DNA of 64,000 nucleotides, taken from the NCBI RefSeq assembly GCF_004366815.1, contig NZ_SORI01000003.1:62001-126000 (forward strand), in the 5' to 3' direction. The notes below the pieces were generated by a model. It was not told the DNA's origin, searched no databases, and saw nothing but the letters and a program-made list of their open reading frames with translations. Positions 22,207 to 39,652 of the stretch are shown in pieces. Source of the DNA: Aminivibrio pyruvatiphilus (GTDB lineage Bacteria > Synergistota > Synergistia > Synergistales > Aminobacteriaceae). The translations under genes and the position numbers were made by a program. How positions within the stretch are numbered: the first letter of the stretch is position 1; each line of letters begins with the position of its first letter.

Positions 22207-22632
22207 TTACATCACCGTGACCGGATCTCCTCTTCTCACTTCTCCGCCCCTGCCCACCCGAAGAAAGTACCCCGCCGCGGGCAGAAGGCACCAGCCCCGG
22301 TAATCGTAGCTGTGGGGCTCCCCCGGTTTTTTGCCTTTCTCGATGACTTCCAGAAGCACAGAATCCCCCGCCTTGAGAACCGCTCCCACGGGCAGCTCTT
22401 CGGGGAGCCCTTCCACCACCAGGTTCTCAGCGAGGGATCCAGGTGGAAAGGCAAAACCGGCCTCTTCTTCCGCCTTCCGGATATCCTCGGCCCGAAGAAG
22501 GCTCACTTCCCGTTCCGTGACGCCTCTGTGGGAGTCCCCTTCGATACCGCCGGGAAAGAACCGGGCACGTTCCACTTCCGTCTTCGGCTGCTGCCGTTCC
22601 GTGCTCACGCAAATGGCCGTCACTGAAGCCAT
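22207..22632 (-). CDS. MOSC-domain protein
   Basis: 141 aa. It has the small stand-alone MOSC pattern: GIEGDSHRG (compare the GxxGDRH-type motif), REVSLLRAEDIRKAE, LAENLVVEGLP, and LKAGDSVLLEVIEKGKKP. MOSC proteins carry sulfur to or from molybdenum cofactor and related substrates, and small ones often sit in Moco gene sets. The molybdenum hydroxylase at 29-32 kb makes that link plausible, though unproven. ATG at 22632 was chosen; an in-frame GTG three codons earlier is an alternative. Confidence 0.8.
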   Translation of the reverse strand: MASVTAICVSTERQQPKTEVERARFFPGGIEGDSHRGVTEREVSLLRAEDIRKAEEEAGFAFPPGSLAENLVVEGLPEELPVGAVLKAGDSVLLEVIEKGKKPGEPHSYDYRGWCLLPAAGYFLRVGRGGEVRRGDPVTVM

Positions 22633-22694
22633 GATTCCCACACCCCCCGCTTGTTCGTTATAAAAAAGAACCAGTTCATAATACGATAGAATAC

Positions 22695-22761: not shown

Positions 22762-24096
22762 TCAGGCCATCCTCGGCAGAAGCACCGGATGGGCTTCCTC
22801 TTCCTCTCCGGCACCTCTGCAGGAGGCGGAAAAATCGACGTGCCGCTTCCTCCCGCCCCAGCTCAGAGTCCGCTGAGCCGGCACCGTTTCGGCGATCACA
22901 GAGCCGTTCCGTACCGACCAGAGACACTCGCTCTGGAGCCGTATGGCCTCGAACCGGTCCGGGGCGTCGAGGACCAGGAGGTTCGCGGGCTTCCCCTGCT
23001 CGATGCCGTAGCGCTCCTCCACGTTCATGGTCCGGGCGGAATTGACGGTGATCATGTCGAAGAGGCGGAATATCTGGTCGTACCCGCTCATGTGGGCCGT
23101 GTGGAGCAGCAGGTTGGCGGCGGCGAGCATGGATCCCTTTCCCATGGGGTACCATGGGTCCATGATGGAATCATGGCCGATGCAGACGTTCACCCCCGCC
23201 GCATCCAGTTCGTCCACCCGGGTGTGCCCCCTGCGCCGGGGATAGCCGTCTGTGCGGTTCTGGAGCACCGAGTTGTCGAAGGGAAGGGTGATGAAATTCA
23301 TCTTCGCCCGCCGGAAAATGCCCATGAGCTTCAGGGCGTAGTCGTTGTTGTAATTATGCATGGCCGTGGTATGGCTCGCCGTCGTGCGGGGACCCATGCC
23401 GGAGGCGATGGCGCATTTTGCCATGACCTCTGCAAACCGGGACTGGTCGTCCCCCGTCTCGTCGCAGTGAATGTCCACGAGCCGGCCGTACTTTTCCGCC
23501 AGATCGAAGGCCAGCTCCACGGACCGGACGCCGTCCTCCCGGGTCAGCTCGTTGTGGGGAATGGCACCGACGCAGTCGCACCCCATCTCCACTGCGCGGC
23601 GAAGATTCCGTTCGCCGTCGGGTATGGTGTAGATGCCGTCCTGGGGAAAGGCCACCACCTGGATTTCGGCAACCTCCCGCATTTCGTCCTTCAGTTCCAG
23701 CAGGGCTTCCACGGTAACCAGGGACGGGTCGGTGGTGTCGGCGTGGGTCCGGATGAACTGCACGCCGTTGGCCGCCTCCCAGAGGACGGCTTCCCTGGCG
23801 TTCCGGAGAATCTCCTCTTTCGTGACGCCCGGCCGGCGCTCGCCCCAGATGGCAATGCCCTCGAGGAGGGTGCCCGAGGCGTTGTACCGGGGCGATCCCA
23901 CTGTGAGGACCGCGTCGAGGTGGAGGTGGGGGTCCGCGAAAGGAGGAGTCACCAGCCTGCCGCCCGCGTCGATCTCCCGGACCGCGCCGCAGTCCAGCCG
24001 CCTTTCCACGGCGGCGAACATTCCCCCGCTGATGCCGATGTCCGCTATTTCTCCGTCTGCAAGCCGTGCCCGGCGAATAATCAGGTCCATGGCCAT
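22762..24096 (-). CDS. codA: Cytosine deaminase
   Basis: 444 aa. It aligns by eye along most of its length with E. coli CodA: PPFADPHLHLD (metal His57 and His59), FPQDG, HCDETGDDQSR (His210, catalytic Glu213), TASHTTAMH (His242) and IGHDSIMDPWYP (metal Asp309). It deaminates cytosine (or a related pyrimidine or isoguanine) to the oxo base and ammonia in the cytoplasm. ATG at 24096 has a GGAGAGAGGGG site; a second ATG two codons later is possible. It has a good promoter at 24131-24159 and is divergent from a nucleobase-type ABC importer, which fits a salvage role. Confidence 0.9.
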   Translation of the reverse strand: MAMDLIIRRARLADGEIADIGISGGMFAAVERRLDCGAVREIDAGGRLVTPPFADPHLHLDAVLTVGSPRYNASGTLLEGIAIWGERRPGVTKEEILRNAREAVLWEAANGVQFIRTHADTTDPSLVTVEALLELKDEMREVAEIQVVAFPQDGIYTIPDGERNLRRAVEMGCDCVGAIPHNELTREDGVRSVELAFDLAEKYGRLVDIHCDETGDDQSRFAEVMAKCAIASGMGPRTTASHTTAMHNYNNDYALKLMGIFRRAKMNFITLPFDNSVLQNRTDGYPRRRGHTRVDELDAAGVNVCIGHDSIMDPWYPMGKGSMLAAANLLLHTAHMSGYDQIFRLFDMITVNSARTMNVEERYGIEQGKPANLLVLDAPDRFEAIRLQSECLWSVRNGSVIAETVPAQRTLSWGGRKRHVDFSASCRGAGEEEEAHPVLLPRMA

Positions 24097-24130
24097 TTCC
24101 CCTCTCTCCTTTTAATGCTACCGGTTGCAC

Positions 24131-24159
24131 ATTTTAACACGAGGACTGCCCGGTGTCCA
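24131..24159 (-). promoter_or_regulatory. codA promoter
   Basis: On the minus strand TGGACA (24154-24159) and TAAAAT (24131-24136) are 17 bp apart, each one mismatch from consensus, and lie about 35 bp before the codA ATG. Confidence 0.6.
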
Positions 24160-24200
24160 TGGCTGACAAAAAATTCCGGAATTCTCGTTACATATCACCA

Positions 24201-24229
24201 TTGACACGGGCTGAAGGCAACCGTTTAAT
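24201..24229 (+). promoter_or_regulatory. Promoter of the BMP-type importer operon
   Basis: TTGACA (24201-24206, consensus) and TTTAAT (24224-24229) are separated by 17 bp. A second, weaker candidate is TTGCCG at 24246 with TAAGAT at 24269, also 17 bp apart. Both point rightward to the importer. Confidence 0.6.
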
Positions 24230-24236
24230 GATGTGA

Positions 24237-24417
24237 ATAGGCATTTTGCCGGTACATTTCTGATAAAATAAGATACTGCCCTTATCCTGCACCGGAACAT
24301 ACGGGGAGGTGAGCCGGAAAAGTCAGTCCACCGGGAAAGGGTGCGTCCGAACGGCAGTTTGGGGAAGCGTCCGCGGCATCTGCGGCCGCTGTTACCGAGA
24401 CCAGGGAGGTGTATCTT
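24237..24417 (+). other. Long 5' leader of the importer operon
   Basis: About 180 nt separate the predicted transcription start from the TTG start codon, with no gene seen. The stretch 24290-24410 is rich in short complementary G/C blocks (for example CGGCATCTGCGG-type pairing near 24374) and ends in the GGGAGG site. A structured leader or riboswitch is possible. I could not match it to purine, cobalamin, TPP or Moco consensus motifs. Confidence 0.35.
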
Positions 24418-25410
24418 TTGAGGAAAAGCGTATTGGCGTTGTTGATGATATTCGTCCTGCTCCTCGCCGGAACCGCTTCGGCGGAGGCCAAGGACTACAA
24501 GGACTTCAAGCTGGCCGCCGTCTTCCAGACGGCCATCGAGGAGCCCTGGGACGGGGCGATCCACCAGGCCTGTCTCCTGCTGCAGAAGGAACTGGGCTTC
24601 ACCTATGAATTCACCGAAAAAGTGGGAGCTGCCGACTTTGAAAGGGTCCTCAGGGAATACGCCGAGAGAGGCTTCGACCTCATCGTGGGAGACGCCTTCC
24701 TCGCCGGAGAGGAACCTTCCCGCCGCATAGCGAAGGACTATCCCGAAGTCGCTTTCGCCTTCGGGTCCGAGTTCACCTTCCAGGAACCAAACTACTCCGT
24801 GTTCGACAACTGGATTCATGAACCCTCATACCTCTGCGGCATCATCGCGGGCCGCATGACTAAAACCAACACCCTCGGAATCGTCGCAGCCATCCCCATC
24901 GCGGAAGTCAACCGTCTCGTCCACGCCTTCAAACAGGGCGCCCTTTCGGTCAATCCGGCCGTCAAGGTGAAGGTCGCCTACATCGGGAGCTGGTTCGATC
25001 CCCCCAAGGCCAAGGAAGCCACCCTCGCCCAGATCGAGGCGGGAGCCGACCTTATTTTCGCCGAACGGTTCGGCGTGTTCGAGGCCGCCAAGGAGAAGGG
25101 CGTCCTCGCCTTCGGCAACATGATGGACCAGCACGCCCTCGCGCCCGAGGTGGTCATCACCGGACCGGTGTGGAATATGGAACCCACCGTCCGCCACTCC
25201 ATCGACGCCGTGAGAAACAAGGAATGGAAGGCCGAAGACCTGAGAGAATGGTCCATGATGGCCCGGGGCGGCGCATATCTCGCTCCCTTCCACGAGTTCC
25301 AGCAGAAGCTTCCTCCCGAAGTGATCAAGGAAGTCCGGGAGCTGGAAGCGAAGATCATGAACGGCCAGTTCACCGTGCCCGTCGTCGAGACCGAGCTCAA
25401 GACGGACTGA
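24418..25410 (+). CDS. BMP-family ABC transporter substrate-binding protein
   Basis: 330 aa with a signal peptide (RKSVLALLMIFVLLLAGTASA). No lipobox Cys is present, so it is a secreted soluble protein or held by other means. The BMP/PnrA fold is indicated by KLAAVFQTAIEEPWDGAIHQA, the middle block YPEVAFAFGSEF, EPSYLCGIIAGRMTKTNTLG and GADLIFAERFG. It should bind nucleosides or nucleobases in the periplasm. TTG at 24418 is preceded by GGGAGG at 8-9 nt, a better fit than the GTG at 24409. It is followed by an intercistronic terminator, then the ATPase and two permeases. Confidence 0.9.
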   Translation: MRKSVLALLMIFVLLLAGTASAEAKDYKDFKLAAVFQTAIEEPWDGAIHQACLLLQKELGFTYEFTEKVGAADFERVLREYAERGFDLIVGDAFLAGEEPSRRIAKDYPEVAFAFGSEFTFQEPNYSVFDNWIHEPSYLCGIIAGRMTKTNTLGIVAAIPIAEVNRLVHAFKQGALSVNPAVKVKVAYIGSWFDPPKAKEATLAQIEAGADLIFAERFGVFEAAKEKGVLAFGNMMDQHALAPEVVITGPVWNMEPTVRHSIDAVRNKEWKAEDLREWSMMARGGAYLAPFHEFQQKLPPEVIKEVRELEAKIMNGQFTVPVVETELKTD

Positions 25411-25421
25411 TTGCCGCTCCG

Positions 25422-25448
25422 GGGGCGGGCCCTCCTGCCCGCCCCTTT
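25422..25448 (+). terminator. Intercistronic terminator/attenuator after the BMP gene
   Basis: GGGGCGGGC (25422-25430) and GCCCGCCCC (25437-25445) form a perfect 9-bp stem followed by TTTCGTCTTT. It probably gives more binding-protein than ATPase message. Confidence 0.7.
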
Positions 25449-25503
25449 CGTCTTTATCCATCATTCTCAATGTATTCGCAGCTACCCGAAAGGGGTGGAT
25501 ACC

Positions 25504-27078
25504 ATGCCCGCTGACAGGCTTGCCATGAGCGCCGGACCCGGGGAAGTGCCGGCCTCCGGGCACACCGACCCTCCCTGCGTCGTGGAAATGCTCTCCATTA
25601 CCAAGACATTCCTCGACGTCACGGCGAACAGGGACGTGAACTTTTCGCTCAGGGAAGGGGAAATCTGCGCTCTTCTCGGCGAGAACGGCGCAGGGAAGAC
25701 CACGCTCATGAACATTCTCTTCGGCTATTACGCCGCCGACAGCGGAGAAATCCGCATCGGGGGCGAGAAAGTCTCCTTTTCGTCCCCCAGGGACGCCATC
25801 GCCTGCCGCATCGGCATGGTCCACCAGCACTTCACCCTGGTGCCGTCCCAGACCGTGCTTGAAAACGTGGTGGTGGGAAGCGGCGGAGGGAGATTCTTCC
25901 TCGATCTTTCCGGGGCGAGAAAAAAACTGCTCGCCCTTCAGGACCGCTTCGGACTCCACGTGGACCCCGACGCCCCGGTGTGGACCCTCCCCATCGGCGG
26001 ACAGCAGAAGGTGGAGATCCTGAAGGCCCTCTACAGGGACGCCCGCATCCTGATCCTCGACGAACCCACGGCGGTGCTCGCACCCCTGGAAACCAGGGAG
26101 CTTTTCGCGACCCTCCGCACCCTCGCAGCGGAGGGCTGCTCCATCATCTTCATCTCCCACAAGCTCTACGAGGTCATGGAGATCGCCGACCGGGTGGTGG
26201 TGCTCACAAAGGGAGTCCTCACCGCCGAAAGGAAGGTCTCCGAGACCACCGAGAGGGAGCTGGCCAGCCTCATGGTGGGCCGGGAACTCGCGGAGAAGAA
26301 GCGTCCCCCCCGGGGAACCCCGGGAAGCCCCCTTCTGGTCGTCCGGGGGCTGACGGTGAAGAACGACAGGAATCTCGAGGCAGTGAACGATCTCTCCCTG
26401 GACATCCGCTCAGGAGAGATCCTGGGCATGGCCGGCGTTTCCGGCAACGGGCAGAGAGAGCTCGCGGAAGCCCTGTTCGGCCTGCGCAAACCCGTGTCGG
26501 GCACCATCTCCGTGGACGGCGGAACCCTTCCCCCGGGCAGGCCGAAAGCCTCGGTGAACAGCGGCATGGGGAGGATTCCCGAGGACAGGATGACCACCGG
26601 TCTCCTCCTTGAGCTTTCCGTGGAGGAAAACCTCGTCCTGGAGAACCACGGCGAATTCCGCTCCATGGGCATGCTGGACCACGGCGCCATAGGGCGGCAC
26701 GCCGACCGGCTCATCTCCGAGTTCAGCATCAGGACCGACGGCAGGGCGGCAAAAGCCCGGACCCTTTCGGGAGGAAACCTCCAGAAGATCATCCTGGCAA
26801 GGGAACTTTCCGCGTCGCCGAAAGTGGTGGTGGCTGCCCAGCCCACCAGGGGGCTCGACGTGGGCGCCATCGAATACGTCCACTGGCGGATCCTGGATGC
26901 CAGGGCAAGCGGCGCAGCCATTCTTCTCATCTCCGAGGATCTCGACGAAATATTCCAGCTCAGCGACCGGATCGCCGTCATGTTCGAAGGCCGCATCATG
27001 GGCATCGCCGACGGCGGCTCAGCGTCCAGGGAGCGGATCGGACTCTGGATGAGCGGGGTGAACGAACCATGCGCATGA
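25504..27078 (+). CDS. Nucleoside-type ABC transporter ATPase (two-domain)
   Basis: 524 aa with two tandem nucleotide-binding domains. The first has Walker A GENGAGKTT near residue 65, signature LPIGGQQKVEILKAL and Walker B ILILDEPTAVLAP. The second has the degenerate P-loop GVSGNGQREL, signature LSGGNLQKIILAREL and AAQPTRGLD instead of the normal Walker B Asp-Glu. This is the standard architecture of BMP-linked nucleoside importers such as NupO/YufO. ATG at 25504 has AAGGGGTGG before it. It overlaps the next permease by 10 bp. Confidence 0.92.
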   Translation: MPADRLAMSAGPGEVPASGHTDPPCVVEMLSITKTFLDVTANRDVNFSLREGEICALLGENGAGKTTLMNILFGYYAADSGEIRIGGEKVSFSSPRDAIACRIGMVHQHFTLVPSQTVLENVVVGSGGGRFFLDLSGARKKLLALQDRFGLHVDPDAPVWTLPIGGQQKVEILKALYRDARILILDEPTAVLAPLETRELFATLRTLAAEGCSIIFISHKLYEVMEIADRVVVLTKGVLTAERKVSETTERELASLMVGRELAEKKRPPRGTPGSPLLVVRGLTVKNDRNLEAVNDLSLDIRSGEILGMAGVSGNGQRELAEALFGLRKPVSGTISVDGGTLPPGRPKASVNSGMGRIPEDRMTTGLLLELSVEENLVLENHGEFRSMGMLDHGAIGRHADRLISEFSIRTDGRAAKARTLSGGNLQKIILARELSASPKVVVAAQPTRGLDVGAIEYVHWRILDARASGAAILLISEDLDEIFQLSDRIAVMFEGRIMGIADGGSASRERIGLWMSGVNEPCA

Positions 27079-28127
27079 TCATAACGAAACGGGCCCCCCT
27101 TCCAGGATGGATCCAGGTACTCGTCCCCGTGGGAGCCATTCTGGCGACCCTCGTCCTTTCGGCCGTTCCCATCCTCATCGCCGGAGGGGACCTCTGGCTC
27201 TCCTACACGTCTCTCTTCAGGGGAGCCCTGGGCACCCGGTACAACTTTCTCGAAACCTGCGTGAAGGCCGCTCCCCTGACCTTCACCGGCCTGGCCGTGG
27301 CCTTCGCCTTCCGGGCGAAATTCTGGAACATCGGCGCGGAAGGGCAGCTTCTCGCCGGGGCCATCGCGGCCACATGGGTTGGCATCAGCGCCCCGGCCCT
27401 TCCGAAAGCCGCCGTGCTGATCCTCGTCTGCGCTGCGGGCTTTCTCGCAGGCGGCCTCTGGGCCACCGTCCCGGCCCTTCTGAAGACGAAGTACAGGGTG
27501 GATGACGTGGTCACCACCCTCCTTCTGAACTACGTCATGTGGCACATCATGGGATACCTGCTCTTCGGCCCCCTCCAGATGCCGAACTCGAGCTGGCCCA
27601 GGTCGCCCGCCATAGCGGAGCTGGCCCGGTTCCCCGTGCTCCTGGTCCGCTCCCGGTTCCACCTCGGCATCGTGCTTGCGGTCGCTGCCGTCCTCATTGT
27701 CTGGTTCATCAACTCGAAGACCGTCTTCGGATACCAGTCCCGGGCGGTGGGGGTCAACCCCAGGGCGGCGGCTTTCGGAGGCATTGACGTCAACTCAGTG
27801 ATCATCCGCACCGCCGTCCTTTCCGGCGGGCTCGCGGGAATGGCGGGAGTGGGGGAGGTGGCCGCCATTCACTTCCATCTCCTCATGGACATATCGCCCG
27901 GCTTCGGGTACTCGGGCATCGTCATCGCCATGCTGGGAAGGCTCCATCCCCTGGGAACGGCCCTCGCGGCCTTCTTCTTCAGCGTCATAATCGTCGGGGC
28001 CCAGTCCATGAGCAGGCTCACCGGCGTCCCGACCTACATCGCCGAGGTGATCCAGGGCATGGCCCTCATCGTGATGCTCATCGCCCTCCTCCTCACCGAA
28101 TACCGCATAAAGGCGGTGAAAGACTGA
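27069..28127 (+). CDS. Nucleoside-type ABC transporter permease 1
   Basis: 352 aa, about 9-10 hydrophobic segments. It has the BPD_transp_2 pattern: FWNIGAEGQLLAGAIAATW near residue 90, VDDVVTTLLLNYV, the loop RAVGVNPRAAAFGGIDV, and GFGYSGIVIAMLGRLHPLG. It resembles YufP/NupP. It overlaps the ATPase by 10 bp and the second permease by 1 bp. Confidence 0.92.
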   Translation: MRMIITKRAPLPGWIQVLVPVGAILATLVLSAVPILIAGGDLWLSYTSLFRGALGTRYNFLETCVKAAPLTFTGLAVAFAFRAKFWNIGAEGQLLAGAIAATWVGISAPALPKAAVLILVCAAGFLAGGLWATVPALLKTKYRVDDVVTTLLLNYVMWHIMGYLLFGPLQMPNSSWPRSPAIAELARFPVLLVRSRFHLGIVLAVAAVLIVWFINSKTVFGYQSRAVGVNPRAAAFGGIDVNSVIIRTAVLSGGLAGMAGVGEVAAIHFHLLMDISPGFGYSGIVIAMLGRLHPLGTALAAFFFSVIIVGAQSMSRLTGVPTYIAEVIQGMALIVMLIALLLTEYRIKAVKD

Positions 28128-29071
28128 TGGAACAGGTACTCACCCTCACCTTCATCACCGGCCTCCTCGCCGCCATGATGCGCATGGCCACCCCCATCAT
28201 CTTCGGCACCCTGGGGGAAATTCTCAGCGAGCGGGCAGGCGTCCTGAACCTCGGCATCGAGGGGATCATGCTCATGGGCGCCATGACGGGCTTCCTCACC
28301 ACCCTCAGCACCGGCTCCCTCTGGCTCGGCGTGGCCGCGGCGGCACTGATCGGCGCTCTCCTTGCCCTTTTCATGGCCTTCCTGGCGGTCTACCTCGGGC
28401 TCTCCCAGCATGTCTCCGGCCTCGGCATCACCCTGTTCTCCACCGGGCTGGCCATGTTCATCTACCGGCTCAGCGTGGGATCTCCGGTGAATCCTCCCAC
28501 GGTACGGCCCTTCACCCAGATGGCCATTCCGTTCCTGTCGGAGCTGCCCGTGGTGGGCCCCGCATTTTTCACCCAGTACACCCTGGTCTACTGGGCGTTT
28601 CTTCTCATCCCGGCCCTCTGGATTCTTCTCTACAGGACCACCTGGGGTCTCGCCATCCGCACGGTGGGTGAAAACCCCCTCGCGGCCGATACAGTGGGCA
28701 TCAACGTCAACCTCGTCCGGACCCTCTGCCTGGCGGCCGGGGGGGCCCTCATGGGCATCGGAGGCGCCTTCCTCACCCTCGCCCACCAGAACATGTTCCT
28801 CATCGACGTGGTGGGAGGCAGGGGATGGATCAGCATCGCCATGGTCATCTTCGGCAACTGGGATCCCGTCCGTGGAGCGGCGGGAGCCCTCATCTTCGGC
28901 TTCCTCGACGCCCTGCAGCTCCGCCTCCAGGGACTGGGATTCAACATTCCCTTCCACCTGTTCCTTCTCATCCCCTACCTGATGACGGTCGTCGCCCTTG
29001 TCAGCGTGTCGCGGAGGGCCGCGGCCCCGGCAGGTCTCCTGAAGCCCTACCGGCGGGAAGAAAAAGGCTAG
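28127..29071 (+). CDS. Nucleoside-type ABC transporter permease 2
   Basis: 314 aa. It shows ATPIIFGTLGEILSERAGVLNLGIEGIML near the start, the loop RTVGENPLAADTVGINV and GRGWISIAMVIFGNWDPVRG, as in YufQ/NupQ-type permeases. It begins in the TGATG overlap with permease 1 and completes the importer. Confidence 0.92.
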   Translation: MEQVLTLTFITGLLAAMMRMATPIIFGTLGEILSERAGVLNLGIEGIMLMGAMTGFLTTLSTGSLWLGVAAAALIGALLALFMAFLAVYLGLSQHVSGLGITLFSTGLAMFIYRLSVGSPVNPPTVRPFTQMAIPFLSELPVVGPAFFTQYTLVYWAFLLIPALWILLYRTTWGLAIRTVGENPLAADTVGINVNLVRTLCLAAGGALMGIGGAFLTLAHQNMFLIDVVGGRGWISIAMVIFGNWDPVRGAAGALIFGFLDALQLRLQGLGFNIPFHLFLLIPYLMTVVALVSVSRRAAAPAGLLKPYRREEKG

Positions 29072-29074
29072 AGA

Positions 29075-29094
29075 CTTTCTCCCCGGGGAGAAAG
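29075..29094. repeat. 20-bp perfect palindrome between importer and hydroxylase genes
   Basis: CTTTCTCCCCGGGGAGAAAG occupies the start of the 52-bp gap between permease 2 and the molybdenum hydroxylase gene. It has no loop and no U run. It could be an operator for an internal promoter or an mRNA processing stem. Confidence 0.6.
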
Positions 29095-29123
29095 AGAATT
29101 ATCGACAGACGGGAGAGTGCAGC

Positions 29124-31451
29124 ATGACGCAGCGATATGTCGGAAAAAGCGTCCAGAGAGTGGACGCGGTGAAAAAAGCGACCGGCGAGGCCTGTTTCGT
29201 GGCCGACATTACCCTTCCCCGGATGCTCCGCGCCAGGGTCGTCAGGGCGGGCATCCCCCACGGAAAAATCCTTTCCGTCGACACCTCGGCGGCGGAGGCC
29301 ATGCCCGGAGTGAAGAAGGTCGTCACGGGACAGGGATGCTCCATGCTCTTCGGCACATGCCTCTGGGACCAGCCTCCCCTGGCGGTGGACAAGGTGCGCC
29401 ATGCGGGCGAGCCGGTGGCGGTGGTGCTGGCGGAAACGGAAAACCAGGCCGAAGCGGCGGCGAAGGCAGTGACGATCGAATATGAAAAGCTTCCCTTCGT
29501 CCTCGACCCCGTGGAGGCCGCCGCGCCGGGGGCGCCTCTGATCCATGAAAAAAACGGCTCCTACCGCAGGGTGGAGTACGTGGTCCATCCCGTTCCCGGA
29601 ACCAACATCTTCCACCATTACAAGCTCCGCAAGGGAGAGAGCGAAAAAGGCTTCGCCGAAGCGGATGTCACCGTGGAGGACGAGTTCGAATTTCCCATCT
29701 CGAGCCATGCCGCCATCGAGCCCCACGGGGCGGTGTGCAGGTTCGGCGCCGACGGGAGTATCGAGATCTGGGCTTCCAACCAGGCCCCCTTCGTCCTCCG
29801 GGACGTGCTGGCCGACATGTTCAAAATCCCTGCCGCGAAGGTCCGGGTCCACATTCCCTACCTCGGGGGCGGCTTCGGCGGCAAGTCCGACGTCTCCATC
29901 GAGCCCATGGTGGCCTACGCGGCCAGCTTCGTCCCGGGATACGCCGTGAAGCTCGTCCTCACCAGGAAGGAAGTCATCACCGGCTCCCTGGTGGGCCGAG
30001 GCATGAAGGGGAACATGAAGATCGGGGCGAAGAAGGACGGCACCTTCACGGCGCTGAAGGCCGAGATGTACTTTGCCGACGGGGCCTACGGCGACACCGG
30101 ATGGCCCGTGGATACCGTGGCGGGACACAACTGCACCGGCCCCTACGAGTTTCCCCACGTCACGGTGGACGTGTACGGAATGTACACCAACACCCCCAAC
30201 GTGGGAGCCTACCGGGGATACGGGCACCCGGAAGGGCAGCTCATGTCGAGCCGCCTCCTGGACATGCTGGCGCGGAAGCTCGGCATGACTCCCGGCGAGC
30301 TCATGCGGAAGAACTTCCTGTCCGAAGGACGGCAGAACGCCCTGGGCCAGGTGATAAAGAAGAGCCACGGCGACCTTCCGGGATGCCTCGCCGCCGTGGA
30401 GAAGGCCCTGGACGAAACGCCCCTCCCCGACAGCGACGAGCGGTTCCTCTACGGCAGGGGAATCGCCTCCATGATGAAATCCCCCAAGATGTCCTCCAAC
30501 GCGGCCTCCACATGCACAGTGCAGATCAACGCCGACGGCTGCGCCTTCGTAAACCTTTCGGGGATCGAGATGGGCCAGGGAGTCCAGACCGTCTTCGCCC
30601 AGATGGCGGCGGAGGCACTGCAGATCCCCTTCGAGAAGGTGAAGACCTACTCGGAGGTGGACACCCAGTTCTCCCCCTGGGAGTGGCAGACCGTGGCCTC
30701 CATGCAGACCTACAGGGGCGGCCGGGCCATCCAGGACGCCTGCGGGCAGATCATCGCCATCGCCAGGGAAACGGCATCGAAGGCCTGGAACTGCTCCCCG
30801 TCCCTGGTAGTTTACAGGGACGGAGAATGCGTCCATCCCAATACGGGCGAGGTCCTCTCCCTGGCGAACCTGGCCAGGGGGTACATGGCTCCCGACTGCC
30901 TCACCATAGGAGCTCCCCTGACAGCCACGGGCTGGTACCGGGTTCCCGGGCTCGTGGAGCCCGACCCGGAAACGGGCATGGGCAACGCGGCGGGCAGCTG
31001 GACCTTCGGAAGCCAGGGCTGCACCCTCAGGGTGGACCGGCAGACCGGGGAAGTGAAGATCCTCCACTTCGCCTCGGCCTTTGACGTGGGGAAGGCGATC
31101 AACCCCGCCACCGCAAGGGGACAGGTCACCGGCGGCGTGGTCCAGGGCATGGGCGCGGCCCTCATGGAAAAAATCCTCTTTACCGCCGACGGCGCGGCAA
31201 AGAACGTCAACTTCCCGGCCTACAAAATACCGAGGCTGAAGGACGCCCCGGAGAAACAGACCGTGGAGCTGCTGGAGACACCCAACCCCGAGGGACCCTG
31301 GAGCGCAAAGCCCATGGCGGAACACCCCATCGTGGCGGTGGCCCCCGTGATCCTCAACGCCCTCCGGGACGCCACGGGAGTGGAATTCACATCTCTTCCG
31401 GTGACACCGGACACAATACTCGAAGCCCTCAGGGCAAAGGAGGCCCGGTAA
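29124..31451 (+). CDS. Xanthine-dehydrogenase-family molybdenum-binding subunit
   Basis: 775 aa. Molybdopterin-binding and active-site blocks are in order: HAAIEPHGAVC (residues 193-203), PYLGGGFGGKSD near 250, VGAYRGYGHPEGQ near 360, EMGQGVQTVFAQM near 480 and KPMAEHPIVAVAP near 735, where Glu of the last block corresponds to the catalytic Glu of xanthine dehydrogenase. It should hydroxylate a purine or other N-heterocycle using water. ATG at 29124 follows GGGAGAG at a usable distance. It is directly followed by the [2Fe-2S] subunit, 1 bp away. The FAD subunit normally found with these two is absent from the window. Confidence 0.9.
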   Translation: MTQRYVGKSVQRVDAVKKATGEACFVADITLPRMLRARVVRAGIPHGKILSVDTSAAEAMPGVKKVVTGQGCSMLFGTCLWDQPPLAVDKVRHAGEPVAVVLAETENQAEAAAKAVTIEYEKLPFVLDPVEAAAPGAPLIHEKNGSYRRVEYVVHPVPGTNIFHHYKLRKGESEKGFAEADVTVEDEFEFPISSHAAIEPHGAVCRFGADGSIEIWASNQAPFVLRDVLADMFKIPAAKVRVHIPYLGGGFGGKSDVSIEPMVAYAASFVPGYAVKLVLTRKEVITGSLVGRGMKGNMKIGAKKDGTFTALKAEMYFADGAYGDTGWPVDTVAGHNCTGPYEFPHVTVDVYGMYTNTPNVGAYRGYGHPEGQLMSSRLLDMLARKLGMTPGELMRKNFLSEGRQNALGQVIKKSHGDLPGCLAAVEKALDETPLPDSDERFLYGRGIASMMKSPKMSSNAASTCTVQINADGCAFVNLSGIEMGQGVQTVFAQMAAEALQIPFEKVKTYSEVDTQFSPWEWQTVASMQTYRGGRAIQDACGQIIAIARETASKAWNCSPSLVVYRDGECVHPNTGEVLSLANLARGYMAPDCLTIGAPLTATGWYRVPGLVEPDPETGMGNAAGSWTFGSQGCTLRVDRQTGEVKILHFASAFDVGKAINPATARGQVTGGVVQGMGAALMEKILFTADGAAKNVNFPAYKIPRLKDAPEKQTVELLETPNPEGPWSAKPMAEHPIVAVAPVILNALRDATGVEFTSLPVTPDTILEALRAKEAR

Positions 31452-31452
31452 C

Positions 31453-31923
31453 ATGCCTGTCCTCAACTTCACCGTCAACGGCGTTCCCAGGACCGTCCAT
31501 CTCGAGGAAGGGAGGGTGATGCTCTCCTCCGTGCTCCGGGACTGTCTCGGCCTCACGGGAACAAAGGTCGGCTGCGGCACGGGGCAGTGCGGTTCCTGCA
31601 CGGTGGTTCTGAACGGCAGCGCGGTGACAAGCTGCACCGTTCCGGCGGAAAAGTGCGAGGGCGCCGACGTGCTCACCATCGAGGCCCTTGCCGAGGGAGG
31701 CGTGCTTCACCCCATCCAGCAGGCCTTCGTGGACGCCGGGGCGATCCAGTGCGGCTTCTGCACCCCCGGCCTCATCATGCGGCTGTACGCCCTCCTCACA
31801 GTGAACCCGGACGCCACGGACGACATCCTTGTGGAAGAGATCAACAGGCACCTCTGCCGCTGCACGGGGTACGAGGCCATCCTCGCCGCCGCACGGCTTG
31901 CCCGGGAGAGAATGAAGAAATAA
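31453..31923 (+). CDS. [2Fe-2S] subunit of the molybdenum hydroxylase
   Basis: 156 aa. It has a plant-type ferredoxin domain with KVGCGTGQCGSCTV and SCTV (first cluster), then an alpha-helical domain with CGFCTPGL and CRCTGYE (second cluster). It passes electrons from the Mo site to an acceptor. It follows the large subunit by 1 bp (overlapping signals), so the two are made together. The natural acceptor is unclear because no FAD subunit is encoded next to it. Confidence 0.93.
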   Translation: MPVLNFTVNGVPRTVHLEEGRVMLSSVLRDCLGLTGTKVGCGTGQCGSCTVVLNGSAVTSCTVPAEKCEGADVLTIEALAEGGVLHPIQQAFVDAGAIQCGFCTPGLIMRLYALLTVNPDATDDILVEEINRHLCRCTGYEAILAAARLARERMKK

Positions 31924-31928
31924 CGCGA

Positions 31929-31949
31929 GGGAGGGGCTCCGCCCCTCCC
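31929..31949. repeat. Intercistronic hairpin
   Basis: GGGAGGGGC (31929-31937) and GCCCCTCCC (31941-31949) form a 9-bp stem with a 3-nt loop. No U run follows, so it is more likely an mRNA stability element than a terminator. Confidence 0.5.
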
Positions 31950-31972
31950 CGAAAAGAAAGGAGAATGAAATT

Positions 31973-33181
31973 ATGGCTTTCAGTCTTCTGGTCAAAAACG
32001 CCCGGACCCGGTTTTCCGGCGGAAAGCTCCTGTCCATCGGCATCGAGGGCGAAAAAATCGCCGCTGTCGGCGAAAACCTTCCCGAGGGCGGAGCGGCGCA
32101 GGTCATCGACGCCGAAGGCAGGCTCGTCACCGAGTCCTTCGTGAACGGCCATCTTCATCTCTGCAAAGTCTACACCCTCGAGATGGTGGGGCAGGATGCC
32201 CTTTCCTCCTACCACGGCGGCTCCATGGGGGGCGCCATGACAGCCATCGAGCAGGCTTCCAGGGTAAAGGACAATTACGATGAAAAATGGATCATCGAAA
32301 ACGTCCGCAAGGCCTGCCGCCTGGCCCAGAAGTACGGCAACACCCACATCCGCGCCTTCGCCGACACGGACACCAAGGCGAAGCTGGAGGGCGTCAAGGC
32401 CCTGATCAAGGCCAGGGAGGAGTTCAGGGACATCGTGGACCTCCAGGTGGTGGCCTTCCCCCAGGACGGCGTGGTGCGCGATCCCGGCGCCGAGGATTAC
32501 ATCCGGAAGGCCCTGGAGCTGGGAGCGGACGTGGTGGGCGGCATTCCCTGGATCGAGTACACCGATGCCGACATGCAGGAGCATATCGACAGGATGTTCG
32601 CCCTGGCGAAGGAGTTCAACAGGGATGTCTCCATGCTCATCGACGACGCCGGCGACCCGGGCCTCAGGTCCCTGGAGATGCTGGCGGTGAAGACGCTGAA
32701 GGAAGGCTGGCAGGGACGGGTCACGGCCCAGCACTGCAGGGCCATGGCCATGTACCGGGAGCCCTACTTCCGCAAGATCCTGGCCCTGCTCCAGAAGGCC
32801 TCCATCGGCCTGGTGAGCGATCCCCAGACCGGCCCCCTCCATGCCCGGGTCCGGGACCTCTACGACTCCGGCGTGGCCGTCGCCCTCGGCCAGGACGACA
32901 TCGCCGACGCCTACTACCCCTTCGGCAGGAACAACATGCTCGAAGTGGCCTTCCTGGCGGTCCACCTGCTGTGGATGACCACCTTCAGCGACATGGAGAT
33001 TATCTACGACCTCATCACCACCAACGCGGCGAAGGCCATGGGCATCAGGGGACACGTCCTCGAGCCCGGCGGGAACGCCGACCTGGTGGTGCTGAACGCC
33101 GGCGACGTTTACCACGCCATCTGGGAGCACGAGGCCCCCTTCAGGGTCATCCGGAAGGGAAAGGACGTCACCCTGCAATAA
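31973..33181 (+). CDS. CodA-like amidohydrolase with altered metal site
   Basis: 402 aa. It is related to cytosine deaminase: NGHLHLCKVY (His60, His62), VVAFPQDGVV, a TAQHCRAM block (His254) and LGQDDIADAYYPFG (Asp308). It differs at two key places compared with CodA: the HCDE motif is replaced by LIDD (residues 222-225) and GHDD by GQDD. One metal/active-site His and the catalytic Glu are therefore changed. It may bind metal differently, act on a different substrate, or belong to a separate, less-known CodA-like clade. It is the last gene of the importer-hydroxylase run, which suggests a role in the same heterocycle pathway. ATG at 31973 follows AAAGGAG. Confidence 0.85.
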   Translation: MAFSLLVKNARTRFSGGKLLSIGIEGEKIAAVGENLPEGGAAQVIDAEGRLVTESFVNGHLHLCKVYTLEMVGQDALSSYHGGSMGGAMTAIEQASRVKDNYDEKWIIENVRKACRLAQKYGNTHIRAFADTDTKAKLEGVKALIKAREEFRDIVDLQVVAFPQDGVVRDPGAEDYIRKALELGADVVGGIPWIEYTDADMQEHIDRMFALAKEFNRDVSMLIDDAGDPGLRSLEMLAVKTLKEGWQGRVTAQHCRAMAMYREPYFRKILALLQKASIGLVSDPQTGPLHARVRDLYDSGVAVALGQDDIADAYYPFGRNNMLEVAFLAVHLLWMTTFSDMEIIYDLITTNAAKAMGIRGHVLEPGGNADLVVLNAGDVYHAIWEHEAPFRVIRKGKDVTLQ

Positions 33182-33195
33182 CCCCCCGAAGCACG

Positions 33196-33229
33196 GCATC
33201 CCCCTCCCGAAGGAGGGGGATGCTTTTTT
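33196..33229 (+). terminator. Terminator of the importer-hydroxylase operon
   Basis: GCATCCCCCTCC (33196-33207) and GGAGGGGGATGC (33212-33223) form a perfect 12-bp stem followed by TTTTTT. It is the end of the rightward run that begins at 24.4 kb. Confidence 0.92.
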
Positions 33230-33231
33230 CT

Positions 33232-34413
33232 TCAAATAAACGAAACGGTGACTTCCTTCAGGTATTTTTCCTCCAGGGTGCGGACGATGGTCCGGATGAT
33301 GTTCCGGCGCATTTCCAGCTCCACCGGCAGGGTGGGGTCCTGGTGGGCCTCGTTCACCCTCGTCCCCACCACAAAGGAAATCCGGTCGCTCTCCAGCAGC
33401 AGGGAGGCCAGCCTCGCCGCCGAGTTCTTCTCCCGGACGATCTCCTTTCCGTCCAGAATCCTGGACACCAGGGTCAGGGTGAGGATCCCCTCGGTGATGA
33501 GGTCCACCCCGTCCATGGAGGACAGGGGCGGCATTCCCCCCCGGGCCGTGGCGAGGTCCGTCACAAGAGGGCGTCCCAGCTCCCTGGCCACGATTTCGGC
33601 GGTGGTGCCGCCGCAGATGGCCTTCCGTCCAGGGAATTTCCCGAGCATTTCGGCGTACTCCCTGTCCCGTTGCCCGTCGAAGGGAGGGCCTGAAAGCACC
33701 AGGAGCTTCCGGGGCGACCGGAAATACATGACGGCGCAGGTCACGTCGTCACCGGCATGCTCATGGGGCTCCCTGACCAGTGCCTCGGAGACGATGCGCC
33801 TCGACAGCTCCCGGGAAGAGAGCCCGGGCCTGTCTCGAAGCAGACGCAGGATATAGTCCGTGCATTTTTCCTCCCCCCACCCCGTGGGGTTCGCCCAGGA
33901 TCCCATGCCCGCCTGGGTCACCCCGTCGGAAAACAGGATGATCCTGTCCTCGGGCCGGGCAAAGAATTCGTTCACCGTGATCTTCCGGTCCTTCCACCGA
34001 GACGAGGCCATCTCACGCCTGCCCGGGGTCATCACCCTCCCGCCCCGCACAAGAAGGAAGGGGGGGTTGTCCATCTCGATCACCCGGGTCCAGCCGTGGA
34101 GCACCGCGTCCACGATGGTGAAGGTGGCGTAGCTTATCCCCCGGACTTTGCACACCGGCAGGGCATCCATCATCACCTCGGCGGACCGGAGGATCTCCAT
34201 GTCCCCCTCCATGAAGCGGAGGGCCATGGTGGCCGTCATGGAGGAGAGGATGCTCGCCTTTATCCCGCTCCCAAGGCCGTCGGAGAGCACGGACACCACC
34301 CTGTTCCTCCCCGGGATTTTCCGGGAGAAAAAGCTGTCGCCGCAGACGAACTGCCCCGTCTTCCTCTTCTGGAAAAAGTCCACGTCCAGGAACAGGGGAT
34401 CGGCTGAGTTCAT
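33232..34413 (-). CDS. SpoIIE-family (PPM-type) protein phosphatase
   Basis: 393 aa. The phosphatase part has GDSFFSRKIPGRNRVVSVLSDG (metal Asp in SDGLGSG), FSDGVTQAGMG near residue 170, and HAGDDVTCAVMYF (late metal Asp). The last 150 residues form an extra domain of unclear type (CGGTTAEIVAREL, then MDGVDLITEGILTL). Such phosphatases typically dephosphorylate a STAS-type antagonist. ATG at 34413 overlaps the stop of the hydrogenase-like gene in ATGA, with GGAGG just before it, so synthesis is coupled to that protein. Confidence 0.85.
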   Translation of the reverse strand: MNSADPLFLDVDFFQKRKTGQFVCGDSFFSRKIPGRNRVVSVLSDGLGSGIKASILSSMTATMALRFMEGDMEILRSAEVMMDALPVCKVRGISYATFTIVDAVLHGWTRVIEMDNPPFLLVRGGRVMTPGRREMASSRWKDRKITVNEFFARPEDRIILFSDGVTQAGMGSWANPTGWGEEKCTDYILRLLRDRPGLSSRELSRRIVSEALVREPHEHAGDDVTCAVMYFRSPRKLLVLSGPPFDGQRDREYAEMLGKFPGRKAICGGTTAEIVARELGRPLVTDLATARGGMPPLSSMDGVDLITEGILTLTLVSRILDGKEIVREKNSAARLASLLLESDRISFVVGTRVNEAHQDPTLPVELEMRRNIIRTIVRTLEEKYLKEVTVSFI

Positions 34414-36128
34414 TGGTCCTCCCCCCTGCCGCAGTCGTCGCTCTCCTGCTCGGAATACCCTTCGGCGATGGACCGCAGCAGCATCTCCGTGTCGGCCATG
34501 TGCTCGCCGAGGCGGCAGGCGATCTCCTGGACGGTGAGGACGTTCCTCTCGATGACCTCGGCGGCCCGCTGGGCGATCTTGTCCCGCTTCAGCTCCCTCC
34601 GGGTCACGTCGAGCATCACCGCCCCCACCGTCTCCCCCGGCTCGATGGAGAACAGGGTGATGTCCAGCAGCACGTCCCCTGCCCGGTAATGGTCCAGGTG
34701 GATGTCCTGCCCCTTCTCCAGCACGATCTCGAACAGGTGGGAAAAGGGAAGGATCCGGCTGAGGATGCAGCCCTTCAGCCCCGGCTCCGCCCGGTACACC
34801 AGCATGGCCTGCTCGCCGAAGAGCCGGGCGAACCGTTCGTTGCACTCCACGATGTGGAGGTTCCGGTCCACGATCACCACGCCGGAAGGCATGGTCCGCA
34901 GCAGGGCGTTCGCCTTCTTCTGAGCCTGGTTCCTCATGTGGATCACGCACATCTCCGGTTCCGCCCGGCCGAGGGCCAGGGCCGCCGCAAGCTCCCGGCA
35001 CGTCCCGTAGCCGCACCCCCCGCAGTTTACCTCGTCTTCCGGCCGGTTCTTCCCGACCCGCTTCAGGGCGTTCTTCAGCTCCTCTTCCCCCACTTCCGGG
35101 GTGTCGGACCCCAGGACCAGGAAATGTCCCGGGGCATCGGAAAGGTTGGCATAGGCCTCCACACGGTTCCGGCGCAGCAGTCCCGGCTCCTCCCACGTGC
35201 CGCCGGGACCGTTGATGCACCCGCCGAGACAGGCAAAGCACTCAAGGAACACGGGGGCCCCCAGGCTCTCCGGAGAAAGCCCCCGGAGGTAGCGGCGCAG
35301 GTTCTGCAGTCCGGACACGGTGACAAAGCGGACCTTCCTGTCCACTCCGCTGGCCCGGATCATATCGCTCATGCCGCCCTCCACCGGGTACAGGAAACCG
35401 TCGCCGGAAGGTTCGGGGAAAAACCGGTCCGCCTCCCCCGGAACGCACTTCTCCGGGGCAACTCCTTCCTCCCGGAGCCATCGGCGGAGTTCCCGGAAGG
35501 TAAGGGCCGCGTCGATGGTGTCCACCGACCGGTCGGACTCGTCCTTCCGGGCGATGCACGGCCCGATGAACACCACGGCGCCTTCAGGGTCCACCAGCTC
35601 CTTGAATATCCGGCAGTGGGCCTCCACAGGGGAGGGAACCGTGGAGAGGGTCCCCGCGAGTTCGGGGAGATACTTCTCCACGTAGGACACCACGCTGGGG
35701 CACGTGGTGGAGAGAAAGAGTCCGGGATCGGCGTCCGAAAGGGTCTTCGCCAGGGATTCGCACACCGCCCCTGCCCCGAGGGCCGTTTCCCCCACGCCGG
35801 AAAAGCCCAGGTGCTTCAGGGCGGCCACCAGGCAGGCGGAATCCAGCCCCGGGAACTCACAGGCCCACGTGGGGGCCATGGAGGCGTACACTCTCCGGCC
35901 GGAAGCGATCATGGCCTTCACCCTGGGAAGGTCCAGCCTCGGCTTCACCGCCTGGAAGGGGCAGGCTTCCACGCACAGGCCGCAGGCCACGCACATTTCG
36001 GGAATGACCGCCGCCTGCCCCCTCTCGACCCGGATCGCCTTCACCGGACACTCCCGGATGCACCGGAAGCACCCCTGGCACTCCGAACCGAAGGACACCA
36101 CGTTCGAACAGACCACGGGATCACTCAT
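34410..36128 (-). CDS. Sensory-type [FeFe] hydrogenase with PAS domain (HydS-like)
   Basis: 572 aa. Two [4Fe-4S] ferredoxin motifs lie at Cys17-27 (CQGCFRCIRECP) and Cys46-56 (CVACGLCVEACP). A reduced H-cluster domain follows: TTCPS at 141-145, GPCIARK around Cys191, and ECFACLGGC at Cys297-304. A Cys-rich NCGGCGYGTC lies at 368-377, and a PAS-type sensor at about 410-520 (SGVVIVDRNLHIVECNERF). In catalytic hydrogenases the first motif is TSCCPxW, so the proton-relay Cys is lost here, as in the putatively sensory group C enzymes. It probably senses H2 or redox state and controls the SpoIIE-type phosphatase it overlaps. A ferredoxin-like protein overlaps its start. Confidence 0.85.
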   Translation of the reverse strand: MSDPVVCSNVVSFGSECQGCFRCIRECPVKAIRVERGQAAVIPEMCVACGLCVEACPFQAVKPRLDLPRVKAMIASGRRVYASMAPTWACEFPGLDSACLVAALKHLGFSGVGETALGAGAVCESLAKTLSDADPGLFLSTTCPSVVSYVEKYLPELAGTLSTVPSPVEAHCRIFKELVDPEGAVVFIGPCIARKDESDRSVDTIDAALTFRELRRWLREEGVAPEKCVPGEADRFFPEPSGDGFLYPVEGGMSDMIRASGVDRKVRFVTVSGLQNLRRYLRGLSPESLGAPVFLECFACLGGCINGPGGTWEEPGLLRRNRVEAYANLSDAPGHFLVLGSDTPEVGEEELKNALKRVGKNRPEDEVNCGGCGYGTCRELAAALALGRAEPEMCVIHMRNQAQKKANALLRTMPSGVVIVDRNLHIVECNERFARLFGEQAMLVYRAEPGLKGCILSRILPFSHLFEIVLEKGQDIHLDHYRAGDVLLDITLFSIEPGETVGAVMLDVTRRELKRDKIAQRAAEVIERNVLTVQEIACRLGEHMADTEMLLRSIAEGYSEQESDDCGRGEDQ

Positions 36129-36390
36129 GACCGGCCTCCCCTTTCCCGAATTCCCTGTCCAGGATCTCCTCTATTCCCTCCGGCGAAACTCCCGTGTAAA
36201 CATGATCATCCACCTGCACCACGGGCCCCTTCGAACACAGCCCCTCGCAGCGGCTCCCCTTGAGGAAAATTCCTGCCTCCAGATCATGCTCCTTCAGGAA
36301 GGACCGGACCACTTCAAGGGAACGGGCATTTCCCCTGGCAAAACAGGAGCTGCCCATGCAGAGGGTGATCTCCCTCTTTTTCTTCATCAT
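36121..36390 (-). CDS. Thioredoxin-like [2Fe-2S] ferredoxin (NuoE C-terminal type)
   Basis: 89 aa. The N-terminal half has CMGSSCFARG, the C-terminal half CEGLCSKGP, giving the C-x4-C...C-x3-C cluster ligands of the NuoE/HydA-type Trx-like ferredoxin fold. It likely moves electrons to or from the hydrogenase-like protein, whose start it overlaps by 8 bp. ATG at 36390 has GGAGG at 11 nt; a directly following second ATG is also possible. Confidence 0.88.
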   Translation of the reverse strand: MMKKKREITLCMGSSCFARGNARSLEVVRSFLKEHDLEAGIFLKGSRCEGLCSKGPVVQVDDHVYTGVSPEGIEEILDREFGKGEAGHE

Positions 36391-36527
36391 GACGCACAGC
36401 GCCTCCTTGATCGTATTTCGCGGCAATGATACTATAAAGTTACATCTTTCACTAAATCAGAATACAAATATAGAATAATGCTGATGAATTGCCCCAAGAG
36501 AAAGACCGGCAACTCAATGAAAAGGAA

Positions 36528-39582: not shown

Positions 39583-39652
39583 CGGATACTTTTGCGGGGA
39601 GGACCCGCGGAACGGAAAAGAATCACAATAAACCAAGGGAGGGAAGTTTTTT

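Follow-up and report, generated by a model that had tools for sequence, protein, structure and literature searches.

Genes and features of the locus

The window analyzed here is a 64,000-nucleotide stretch of the Aminivibrio pyruvatiphilus genome. Within it, codA1 (22762-24096, minus strand) is divergent from a run of plus-strand genes (24409-33181) in the order BMP, ATPase, permease, permease, xdhL, xdhS, and codA2, hereafter module B (BMP-ABC-XdhL-XdhS-CodA2). Open reading frames, Pfam and NCBIfam matches, and a terminator scan all agree with the layout in the preliminary description, in which a cytosine deaminase is divergent from a BMP importer, a molybdenum (Mo) hydroxylase, and a CodA-like amidohydrolase ending at one strong terminator. 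This intrinsic terminator (33195-33224, plus strand) has a 13-pair stem with 9 G-C pairs, followed by TTTTTT. The intergenic gaps from BMP to codA2 measure 90, -10, -1, 52, 1, and 49 bp, so that the run is compatible with one operon. A weaker hairpin with a weak T-tail lies between the BMP and ATPase genes (25421-25446, plus strand) and is possibly an attenuator. Upstream of codA1 there is a sigma-70-like promoter match (24131-24159, minus strand; 10/12, with TG before the second hexamer), which is a consensus match only. Scans of the window revealed no riboswitch or other RNA at the Rfam gathering threshold, and no tRNA.

CodA1 scores above the NCBIfam cut-offs for cytosine deaminases (493 versus 438 bits and 492 versus 483 bits) and keeps all seven metal and catalytic residues (H61, H63, Q156, H214, E217, H246, and D313). 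Position 314 (Asp314 in E. coli) is Ser, as in the K. pneumoniae 5-methylcytosine deaminase, and the nearest PDB entry (4r7w, E 1.3e-122) carries the title 5-methylcytosine deaminase. Downstream, a MOSC-domain protein (22207-22641, minus strand; PF03473, 33.9 bits versus a cut-off of 22.7) possibly functions in Mo-cofactor maturation; its gene travels with codA1, adjoining it in genera g1 and g9. Linkage of codA1 to module B was seen in two genera only, and in another genus codA1 is found within the AllFGH cluster, which argues against the earlier view of codA1 as an integral part of the locus.

The importer is composed of a BMP/PnrA-like substrate-binding protein (24409-25410, plus strand; PF02608, 118 bits) with a signal-peptide-like N-terminus, an ATPase with two ABC domains (25504-27078, plus strand; PF00005) whose start, from the codon context, is most likely the ATG at 25504, and two permeases (27069-28127 and 28127-29071, plus strand; both PF02653). 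The nearest PDB entry to the BMP is AtzT (6pi5), which binds guanine. The pocket residues (W47, D95-A96-F97, E166, N168, W195, E219, and R220) are invariant across 37 module-B BMPs, and two stacking aromatics (Trp/Trp) together with a Glu (AtzT Glu165) are present in 37/37, the first aromatic being offset by one column from AtzT Tyr45 in the MAFFT alignment. The columns of the guanine-reading residues Ser97, Asn218, and Asn220 of AtzT are occupied by Ala, Phe/Tyr, and Glu in the BMPs, and a guanine ligand is therefore not implied. The predicted structure of the BMP (pLDDT 74.8) was not reliable enough to look for similar folds. A role in vitamin B6 transport was set aside, with NCBIfam B6 models far below cut-off.

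XdhL (29124-31451, plus strand; MoCoBD_1/2 and Ald_Xan_dh_C in Pfam) is a large subunit of the XDH family of Mo hydroxylases, and XdhS (31453-31923, plus strand; PF00111 and PF01799) is a [2Fe-2S] small subunit. XdhL falls under every NCBIfam cut-off (477 versus 780) and forms its own clade (100/100) in a Mo hydroxylase tree from which A_L215chl (likely mis-framed, branch length 9.67) and own_C8a were left out. In the motif alignment, Glu802 is replaced by Ser and Arg880 by Val, and Glu1261 is retained; in xanthine oxidase (bovine numbering) we take the first two to be purine-binding and the third to be catalytic. The locus encodes no FAD subunit, PF00941 matches being found on contigs C8 and C30 only. 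XdhL/XdhS thus lacks both features by which a xanthine dehydrogenase would be recognized, namely the purine-binding Glu802/Arg880 pair and the FAD subunit.

CodA2 has an altered metal site

CodA2 (31973-33181, plus strand) was assigned to a distinct amidohydrolase clade from an alignment of its relatives and a structure model. Residues H60, H62, Q164, H254, D308, and D309 are retained. At the beta5 position that holds His214 in CodA and the metal ligand His217 in AtzC, CodA2 has Leu222, and at the position of the catalytic Glu217 of CodA (His219 of AtzC) it has Asp225; Leu and Asp occupy these positions in 59/59 relatives. CodA2 also fails every curated NCBIfam cut-off (best 273 versus 438). 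Judging from these residues, CodA2 is CodA-like by family only and is not the second cytosine deaminase that had been proposed, but a member of a separate, unstudied group with a predicted alteration of the metal site.

The model of CodA2 (pLDDT 89.8) gave AtzC (TM 0.91) and CodA (TM 0.90) as its best PDB fold matches. Given that AtzC is the closest structure to CodA2 and AtzT the closest to the BMP, these parts and the Mo hydroxylase could instead serve a route for another small heterocycle (s-triazine/ammelide-, creatinine-, or nicotinate-like). We consider such a route improbable: CodA2 lacks the AtzC ligand His217, the BMP pocket is unlike that of AtzT at Ser97, Asn218, and Asn220, cytosine and isocytosine deaminases recur in the neighborhood, and the AtzD/TrzD family was not found in a weak search whose controls were silent.

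Module B is conserved across phyla

The same BMP-ABC-XdhL-XdhS-codA2 order was found at 5 loci in Synergistota and 17 in Chloroflexi; Spirochaetota carry the gene set in rearranged form. Between Synergistota and Chloroflexi the seven-gene order is kept at 44-72% identity, implying an arrangement beyond chance. Module B is genuine and is conserved widely among bacteria that shun oxygen. Synteny across Synergistota, which had been put forward as a check, is present and extends to Chloroflexi, with the exception of codA1, which is local to two genera; this recurrence across phyla is at odds with the notion of an "island" as a special local arrangement. Among the papers covered by our literature searches for the gene combination, none described the module, in keeping with the earlier remark that no described pathway with exactly this gene order was known to its author. 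The order is not private to this genome.

In Firmicutes and Verrucomicrobia, codA2 occurs without BMP or Xdh, and no intact XdhL lies beside codA2 in the Firmicutes codA2 loci or in Acetomicrobium hydrogeniformans, so that the substrate of CodA2 may be something other than what XdhL produces. These solitary copies and the lineage-limited codA1 link would fit a simple salvage or uptake locus with independent enzymes and an order left by historical accident. The order kept at such divergence, the invariant BMP pocket, and the co-occurrence of codA2 with allG across phyla make this highly unlikely.

Module B is tied to an AllFGH gene set

A larger pathway appears to lie mostly on another contig, outside the window. 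Module A, as we define it, is the AllFGH-centered gene set that this genome carries on contig C30, comprising a PF04199 cyclase, a three-subunit Mo hydroxylase, an AllFGH-type transcarbamylase, a CoA-transferase III, and nucleobase permeases. The AllG family (PF06545) is above cut-off in this genome; the AllH family (PF11392) is above cut-off at relatives' loci, and AllH in this genome was identified by 39% tblastn similarity only. Carbamate kinase is also present, above cut-off. The CoA-transferase is equally close to oxalate and dicarboxylate transferases, and the NCS2 permeases score best against a xanthine permease model, yet below its cut-off.

Among codA2 genomes, 46/50 from several phyla carry allG. 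The association, computed with kinship ignored, holds in Synergistota (10/11 versus 6/140, Fisher p 7e-11) and Anaerolineae (11/13 versus 64/186, p 5e-4), and module B lies within or adjoining module A in G139, G122, G132, and the Anaerolineae G287. Taken together, the cross-phylum synteny, the AtzT-like aromatics and Glu of the BMP, and this carbamoyltransferase co-occurrence support the proposal that a heterocyclic base would be imported, hydroxylated, and hydrolyzed together. Module B very likely imports a nucleobase-like ring and oxidizes it with a Mo enzyme, the product passing into a breakdown pathway that yields energy, with the substrates themselves being inferred.

A separate cluster on contig C8 contains SsnA (33%), PreA/UacX-like, and XDH genes, and purines appear to be handled by this urate-type cluster. 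The reductive urate pathway (XdhD-YgfK/UacX-SsnA-HyuA-YgeW-YgeX; PMC12507026) was set aside as the identity of the modules, SsnA and YgfK/UacX being absent from both; the xanthinase pathway was likewise considered and set aside.

A possible route for anaerobic pyrimidine oxidation

Our best explanation, which we regard as about evenly poised between right and wrong, is that modules B and A carry out anaerobic oxidative pyrimidine breakdown in which carbamoyl phosphate is captured as ATP. It is based on synteny, co-occurrence, residue conservation, and family assignments; every substrate, the electron acceptor, and the identity of the ring-opening hydrolase are inferred. The window locus would provide the ABC-importer/Mo-hydroxylase/amidohydrolase arm: the BMP would bind a nucleobase-like heterocycle for uptake by the ABC transporter, XdhL/XdhS would hydroxylate it, with electrons passing via [2Fe-2S] to ferredoxin or to a FAD subunit common to the second Mo hydroxylase, and CodA2 would open or deaminate the XdhL product or a later intermediate, the module B product then entering module A. 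CodA1 would make uracil from cytosine, or thymine from 5-methylcytosine, for a Mo hydroxylase to oxidize to a barbiturate; ring opening would give ureidomalonate, which the AllFGH-like enzyme would split into malonamate and carbamoyl phosphate. Carbamate kinase would then make ATP, and malonate would be converted to its CoA ester. In the homologous series, ureidomalonate comes directly after oxalurate.

Pyrimidines are favored by the presence of CodB (assigned from its resemblance to the E. coli protein) and CodA1 (68%) in module A of G128, a CodB relative close to allFG in G192, and a CodA-like gene adjoining allF in G226. They are further favored by the Firmicutes loci, in which the nearest PDB entry to an "8-oxoguanine deaminase" is the isocytosine-specific deaminase 7ww2 and another CodA looks like a cytosine deaminase. 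The explanation as a whole also draws on the conserved gene order, the co-occurrence with allG, the apparently separate purine cluster on C8, the carbamate kinase, the BMP pocket, and the absence from XdhL of the purine-binding Glu and Arg. The barbiturase family PF09663 matched 0/14 module-A genomes, an uninformative result given that the search controls were silent too, and pyrimidine breakdown must thus assume a non-homologous ring-opener.

Counted against pyrimidine breakdown are the xanthine permease-like NCS2 proteins and the codA2 loci without an intact XdhL, as well as two observations that fit oxalurate, namely the hydantoinase-, AllB-, or AllD-like genes at some Anaerolineae module A loci, near allFG, and the resemblance of the CoA-transferase to CoA:oxalate CoA-transferase. 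In that alternative, a purine, hydantoin, or allantoin-like compound would be degraded as far as oxalurate, from which AllFGH would release oxamate and carbamoyl phosphate; the frc-like CoA-transferase would then activate oxalate. Cleavage of oxalurate, an acylurea, is the sole demonstrated AllFGH activity (E. coli; PMC11326118), the nearest BMPs, AtzT and 3s99, bind purines, and in nitrifiers the pairing of AllFGH with BMP transporters has been interpreted as purine-product use (PMC12625717). Nevertheless, no allantoinase, AllC, AllD, SsnA, or YgfK homologue was detected within this genome's modules, the SsnA cluster stands apart on C8, CodA1/CodB lie within or beside the modules, and XdhL is without the purine-binding residues of xanthine oxidase, leaving an oxalurate route possible but rather unlikely.

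More tentatively, pyrimidine breakdown by these modules may represent an undescribed, widespread anaerobic pathway with AllFGH-like ureidomalonate phosphorolysis, the window operon as its dedicated import and Mo-hydroxylase arm, and CodA2 as a new class with a reduced three-residue metal site. If so, fermentative Synergistota, Anaerolineae, spirochaetes, and gut Firmicutes (Flavonifractor) would oxidize pyrimidines without oxygen and recover ATP from them through carbamoyl phosphate. Functions would follow for PF04199 cyclases, for AllFGH homologues beyond allantoin metabolism, and for a Mo hydroxylase clade currently annotated as xanthine dehydrogenase. A likely annotation error is also corrected, that of "cytosine deaminase" genes without a metal ligand that true CodA enzymes invariably have.

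Comparison with known systems

The oxidative pyrimidine pathway employs uracil dehydrogenase, barbiturase, and ureidomalonase. The proposed route would share its logic from uracil through barbiturate to ureidomalonate, but AllFGH phosphorolysis would stand in for hydrolytic urea release, and the known barbiturase family was not found. As in the reductive urate pathway (PMC12507026), an anaerobic Mo hydroxylase and an amidohydrolase would act on a nucleobase, followed by carbamoyl transfer. AtzT and AtzC of the atrazine plasmid (PMC6834077, PMC4577212) share with the BMP its fold, aromatic sandwich, and Glu, and with CodA2 its fold, but differ in the polar pocket residues and the His217 ligand. 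Nitrifier clusters (allFGHK, bmpA-nupABC, codB; PMC12625717) likewise link AllFGH to a BMP-type importer and CodB; they are built around biuret and triuret hydrolases, with no Mo hydroxylase or CodA2 mentioned in the passages covered. Unlike the anaerobic allantoin branch of E. coli, which uses the oxamic transcarbamylase AllFGH (PMC11326118), the genome's modules have no detected allantoinase, AllC, or AllD, and the upstream parts are instead Mo hydroxylases, a PF04199 cyclase, CodA2, and a BMP ABC importer. Both systems nonetheless have AllF, AllG, and AllH homologues with a carbamate kinase, and the conversion of carbamoyl phosphate to ATP would apply here as well.

Gene layout of the block

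Open reading frames and NCBIfam and Pfam matches agree with the gene positions in the preliminary description, and its layout of a codA1 gene divergent from an importer, a molybdenum hydroxylase and an amidohydrolase was confirmed. CodA1 (22762-24096, minus strand) exceeds the NCBIfam cytosine deaminase cut-offs, and a MOSC gene lies downstream of it. The plus-strand run, here termed module B (24409-33181), encodes a BMP protein, an ABC ATPase, two permeases, XdhL, XdhS and the CodA-like amidohydrolase CodA2. From the ATPase gene onward, neighboring genes overlap or lie close together, and the run closes, as had been described, at a terminator consisting of a 13-pair hairpin and T6 (33195-33224). 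A weaker hairpin directly 3' of the BMP gene (25421-25446) could favor higher BMP expression. The 312-bp divergent gap between codA1 and the BMP gene carries a promoter-like match on the codA1 side only, and RNA family and tRNA scans detected neither within the window.

Beyond the terminator, the minus-strand genes at 33232-36426, encoding an iron-only hydrogenase-like protein that carries PAS (34410-36128), a thioredoxin-like 2Fe-2S protein and, further downstream, what reads by eye as a SpoIIE-type phosphatase, resemble a sensory hydrogenase cassette. Close to module B lies a second transporter/enzyme-like pair (38572-40618, plus strand), in which a TctC solute-binding protein comes after a DUF6282 protein.

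Module B is conserved across phyla

CodA2 was present at 71% identity or more in 11 of 151 Synergistota relatives. The seven-gene block is intact, where contigs are long enough, in the window's own 3.35-Mb genome and in G001, G002, G139 and G122, and partly visible in five more genomes. A genome-collection scan for CodA2 returned 80 loci (59-96% identity). Synteny extended to 16 Chloroflexi loci and the Anaerolineae genome G287, which share the Synergistota order, while in Spirochaetota the genes are rearranged, either as XdhL-XdhS-BMP-ABC-CodA2 or with the ABC genes convergent with CodA2. Module B XdhLs formed a single group in the tree (100/100 support), to which neither XdhA/XdhD of E. coli nor any other molybdenum hydroxylase tested belonged. 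The retention of block order across phyla and the single XdhL group imply that module B is a unit rather than a local accident. This unit is larger and older than originally proposed, and codA1, which had been counted within it, is a lineage-specific neighbor, divergent from module B together with the MOSC gene in only two genera (g1 and g9).

In Acetomicrobium hydrogeniformans, module B looks decayed (L039, 9435-12741): BMP and XdhL are fragments, ABC genes were not detected, XdhS remains and CodA2 is intact. Module A, a cluster encoding an AllFGH-type transcarbamylase, a PF04199 cyclase and a molybdenum hydroxylase, lies elsewhere in this genome.

CodA2 is a distinct clade linked to AllFGH

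Neither the profile scores nor the active-site residues of the second CodA-like protein fit a cytosine deaminase. CodA2 falls below all curated NCBIfam cut-offs (best, 273 vs 438 bits), and its predicted structure (pLDDT 89.8) matches AtzC (TM 0.91) and CodA (TM 0.90). In an alignment of 59 CodA2s from many phyla, E. coli CodA positions H61, H63, Q156, H246, D313 and D314 are invariant, but H214 and E217, both retained by CodA1 and other aligned CodA relatives, are Leu and Asp, respectively, in 59/59. Because the retrieval patterns left out these two positions, the search itself did not produce this result. The AtzC equivalent of H214, His217, is a zinc ligand (PMC4577212). From the Leu/Asp pair, the metal of CodA2 is predicted to be held by one Asp and just two His. 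Judged by sequence, CodA2 is a distinct enzyme clade and not a cytosine deaminase.

AllG was found in 16 of 151 Synergistota (10/11 CodA2 carriers vs 6/140 others; the eleventh carrier's genome is 85% complete), in 46/50 CodA2 genomes of other phyla vs 1/14 control genomes, and in 11/13 CodA2 carriers vs 64/186 others in a 199-genome sample of the class of Bellilinea, with co-occurrence p values that ignore relatedness of the genomes. Synergistota module A is ordered, with small variations, PucR / CN-hydrolase-CoA-transferase III-AllH-AllF-AllG-cyclase-XdhB-XdhS-XdhL2-NCS2 permease; in the window's genome, where the window is on contig C3, module A lies on contig C30 and no CN-hydrolase was seen in it. 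Module B is inserted within module A in G139, adjoins it in G122 and G132, and in G287 continues into thiolase-AllF-CN-hydrolase. Among the loci inspected in Anaerolineae and Spirochaetota, AllF-AllG-cyclase-Xdh clusters of this kind are common. In gut Firmicutes, CodA2 neighbors AllF, AllG, AllH, a PF04199 cyclase, carbamate kinase, nucleobase permeases and deaminases, with no adjoining XdhL. Given this arrangement, and the fragmentary XdhL of Acetomicrobium, CodA2 is more tightly tied to AllFGH than to XdhL. Its role may be ring opening or deamination shortly before the transcarbamylase step.

Six Firmicutes codA2 loci that have no linked molybdenum hydroxylase share a nitroreductase-family gene, whose product might stand in as the oxidoreductase. 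A metagenome-assembled genome labeled Thaumarchaeota carries CodA2, AllF, AllG, AllH, XDH, acetyl-CoA-synthetase-like and thiolase genes on one contig (L119), a possible transfer or binning error. Genes 53-59% identical to its thiolase lie beside allFG clusters at seven Spirochaetota and Anaerolineae loci.

Ligand and substrate

The nearest solved relative of the BMP protein is guanine-carrying AtzT (6pi5). Both stacking aromatics and Glu165 of AtzT are kept in 37/37 aligned module B BMPs (Synergistota, Spirochaetota, Chloroflexi and one Deltaproteobacterium), whereas Ser97, Asn218 and Asn220 are replaced by other, nearly invariant residues. All carriers probably bind one and the same flat heterocycle, which need not be guanine. 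By motif alignment, the catalytic Glu is present in XdhL, but the purine-binding Glu802 and Arg880 of xanthine oxidase are replaced by Ser and Val. No FAD subunit gene occurs in the module B locus, and PF00941 is found in the window's genome on contigs C8 and C30 only. The idea that a heterocycle is taken up and broken down jointly has good support; its identity and the chemistry are inferred only.

We favor pyrimidines as the substrate of both modules on several grounds. Module A of G128 includes CodB and a CodA1 68% identical to that of the window, G192 has a CodB relative close to allFG, and G226 a CodA-like gene just before allF. The Firmicutes "8-oxoguanine deaminase" is nearest, in the PDB, to an isocytosine-specific deaminase (7ww2), and the additional CodA of those loci to cytosine deaminases. 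CodA1 has Ser at position 314, as in Klebsiella 5-methylcytosine deaminase. Lastly, purine breakdown has a candidate elsewhere: on contig C8 (L152, 4336-15065), two XDH sets flank SsnA-like and PreA/UacX-like genes, with a MocA-like gene also present, and this cluster, apart from module B, is a probable reductive urate pathway (PMC12507026). Uracil would then yield barbiturate, and barbiturate would yield ureidomalonate. Just as AllFGH cleaves oxalurate (PMC11326118), the AllFGH homologue would cleave ureidomalonate, giving malonamate and carbamoyl phosphate; the window's genome has a carbamate kinase gene on contig C11. A purine/oxalurate route is nonetheless a serious rival, as AllB-, AllD- or hydantoinase-like genes adjoin some Anaerolineae clusters and the module A CoA-transferase is as near to oxalate enzymes as to dicarboxylate ones. 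The known barbiturase family (PF09663) also had no match in 14 module A genomes, where the controls were silent too, and this may likewise count against pyrimidines.

Searches of openly accessible literature returned no account of module B. The nearest described arrangement links AllFGH, BMP and CodB in nitrifiers (PMC12625717).
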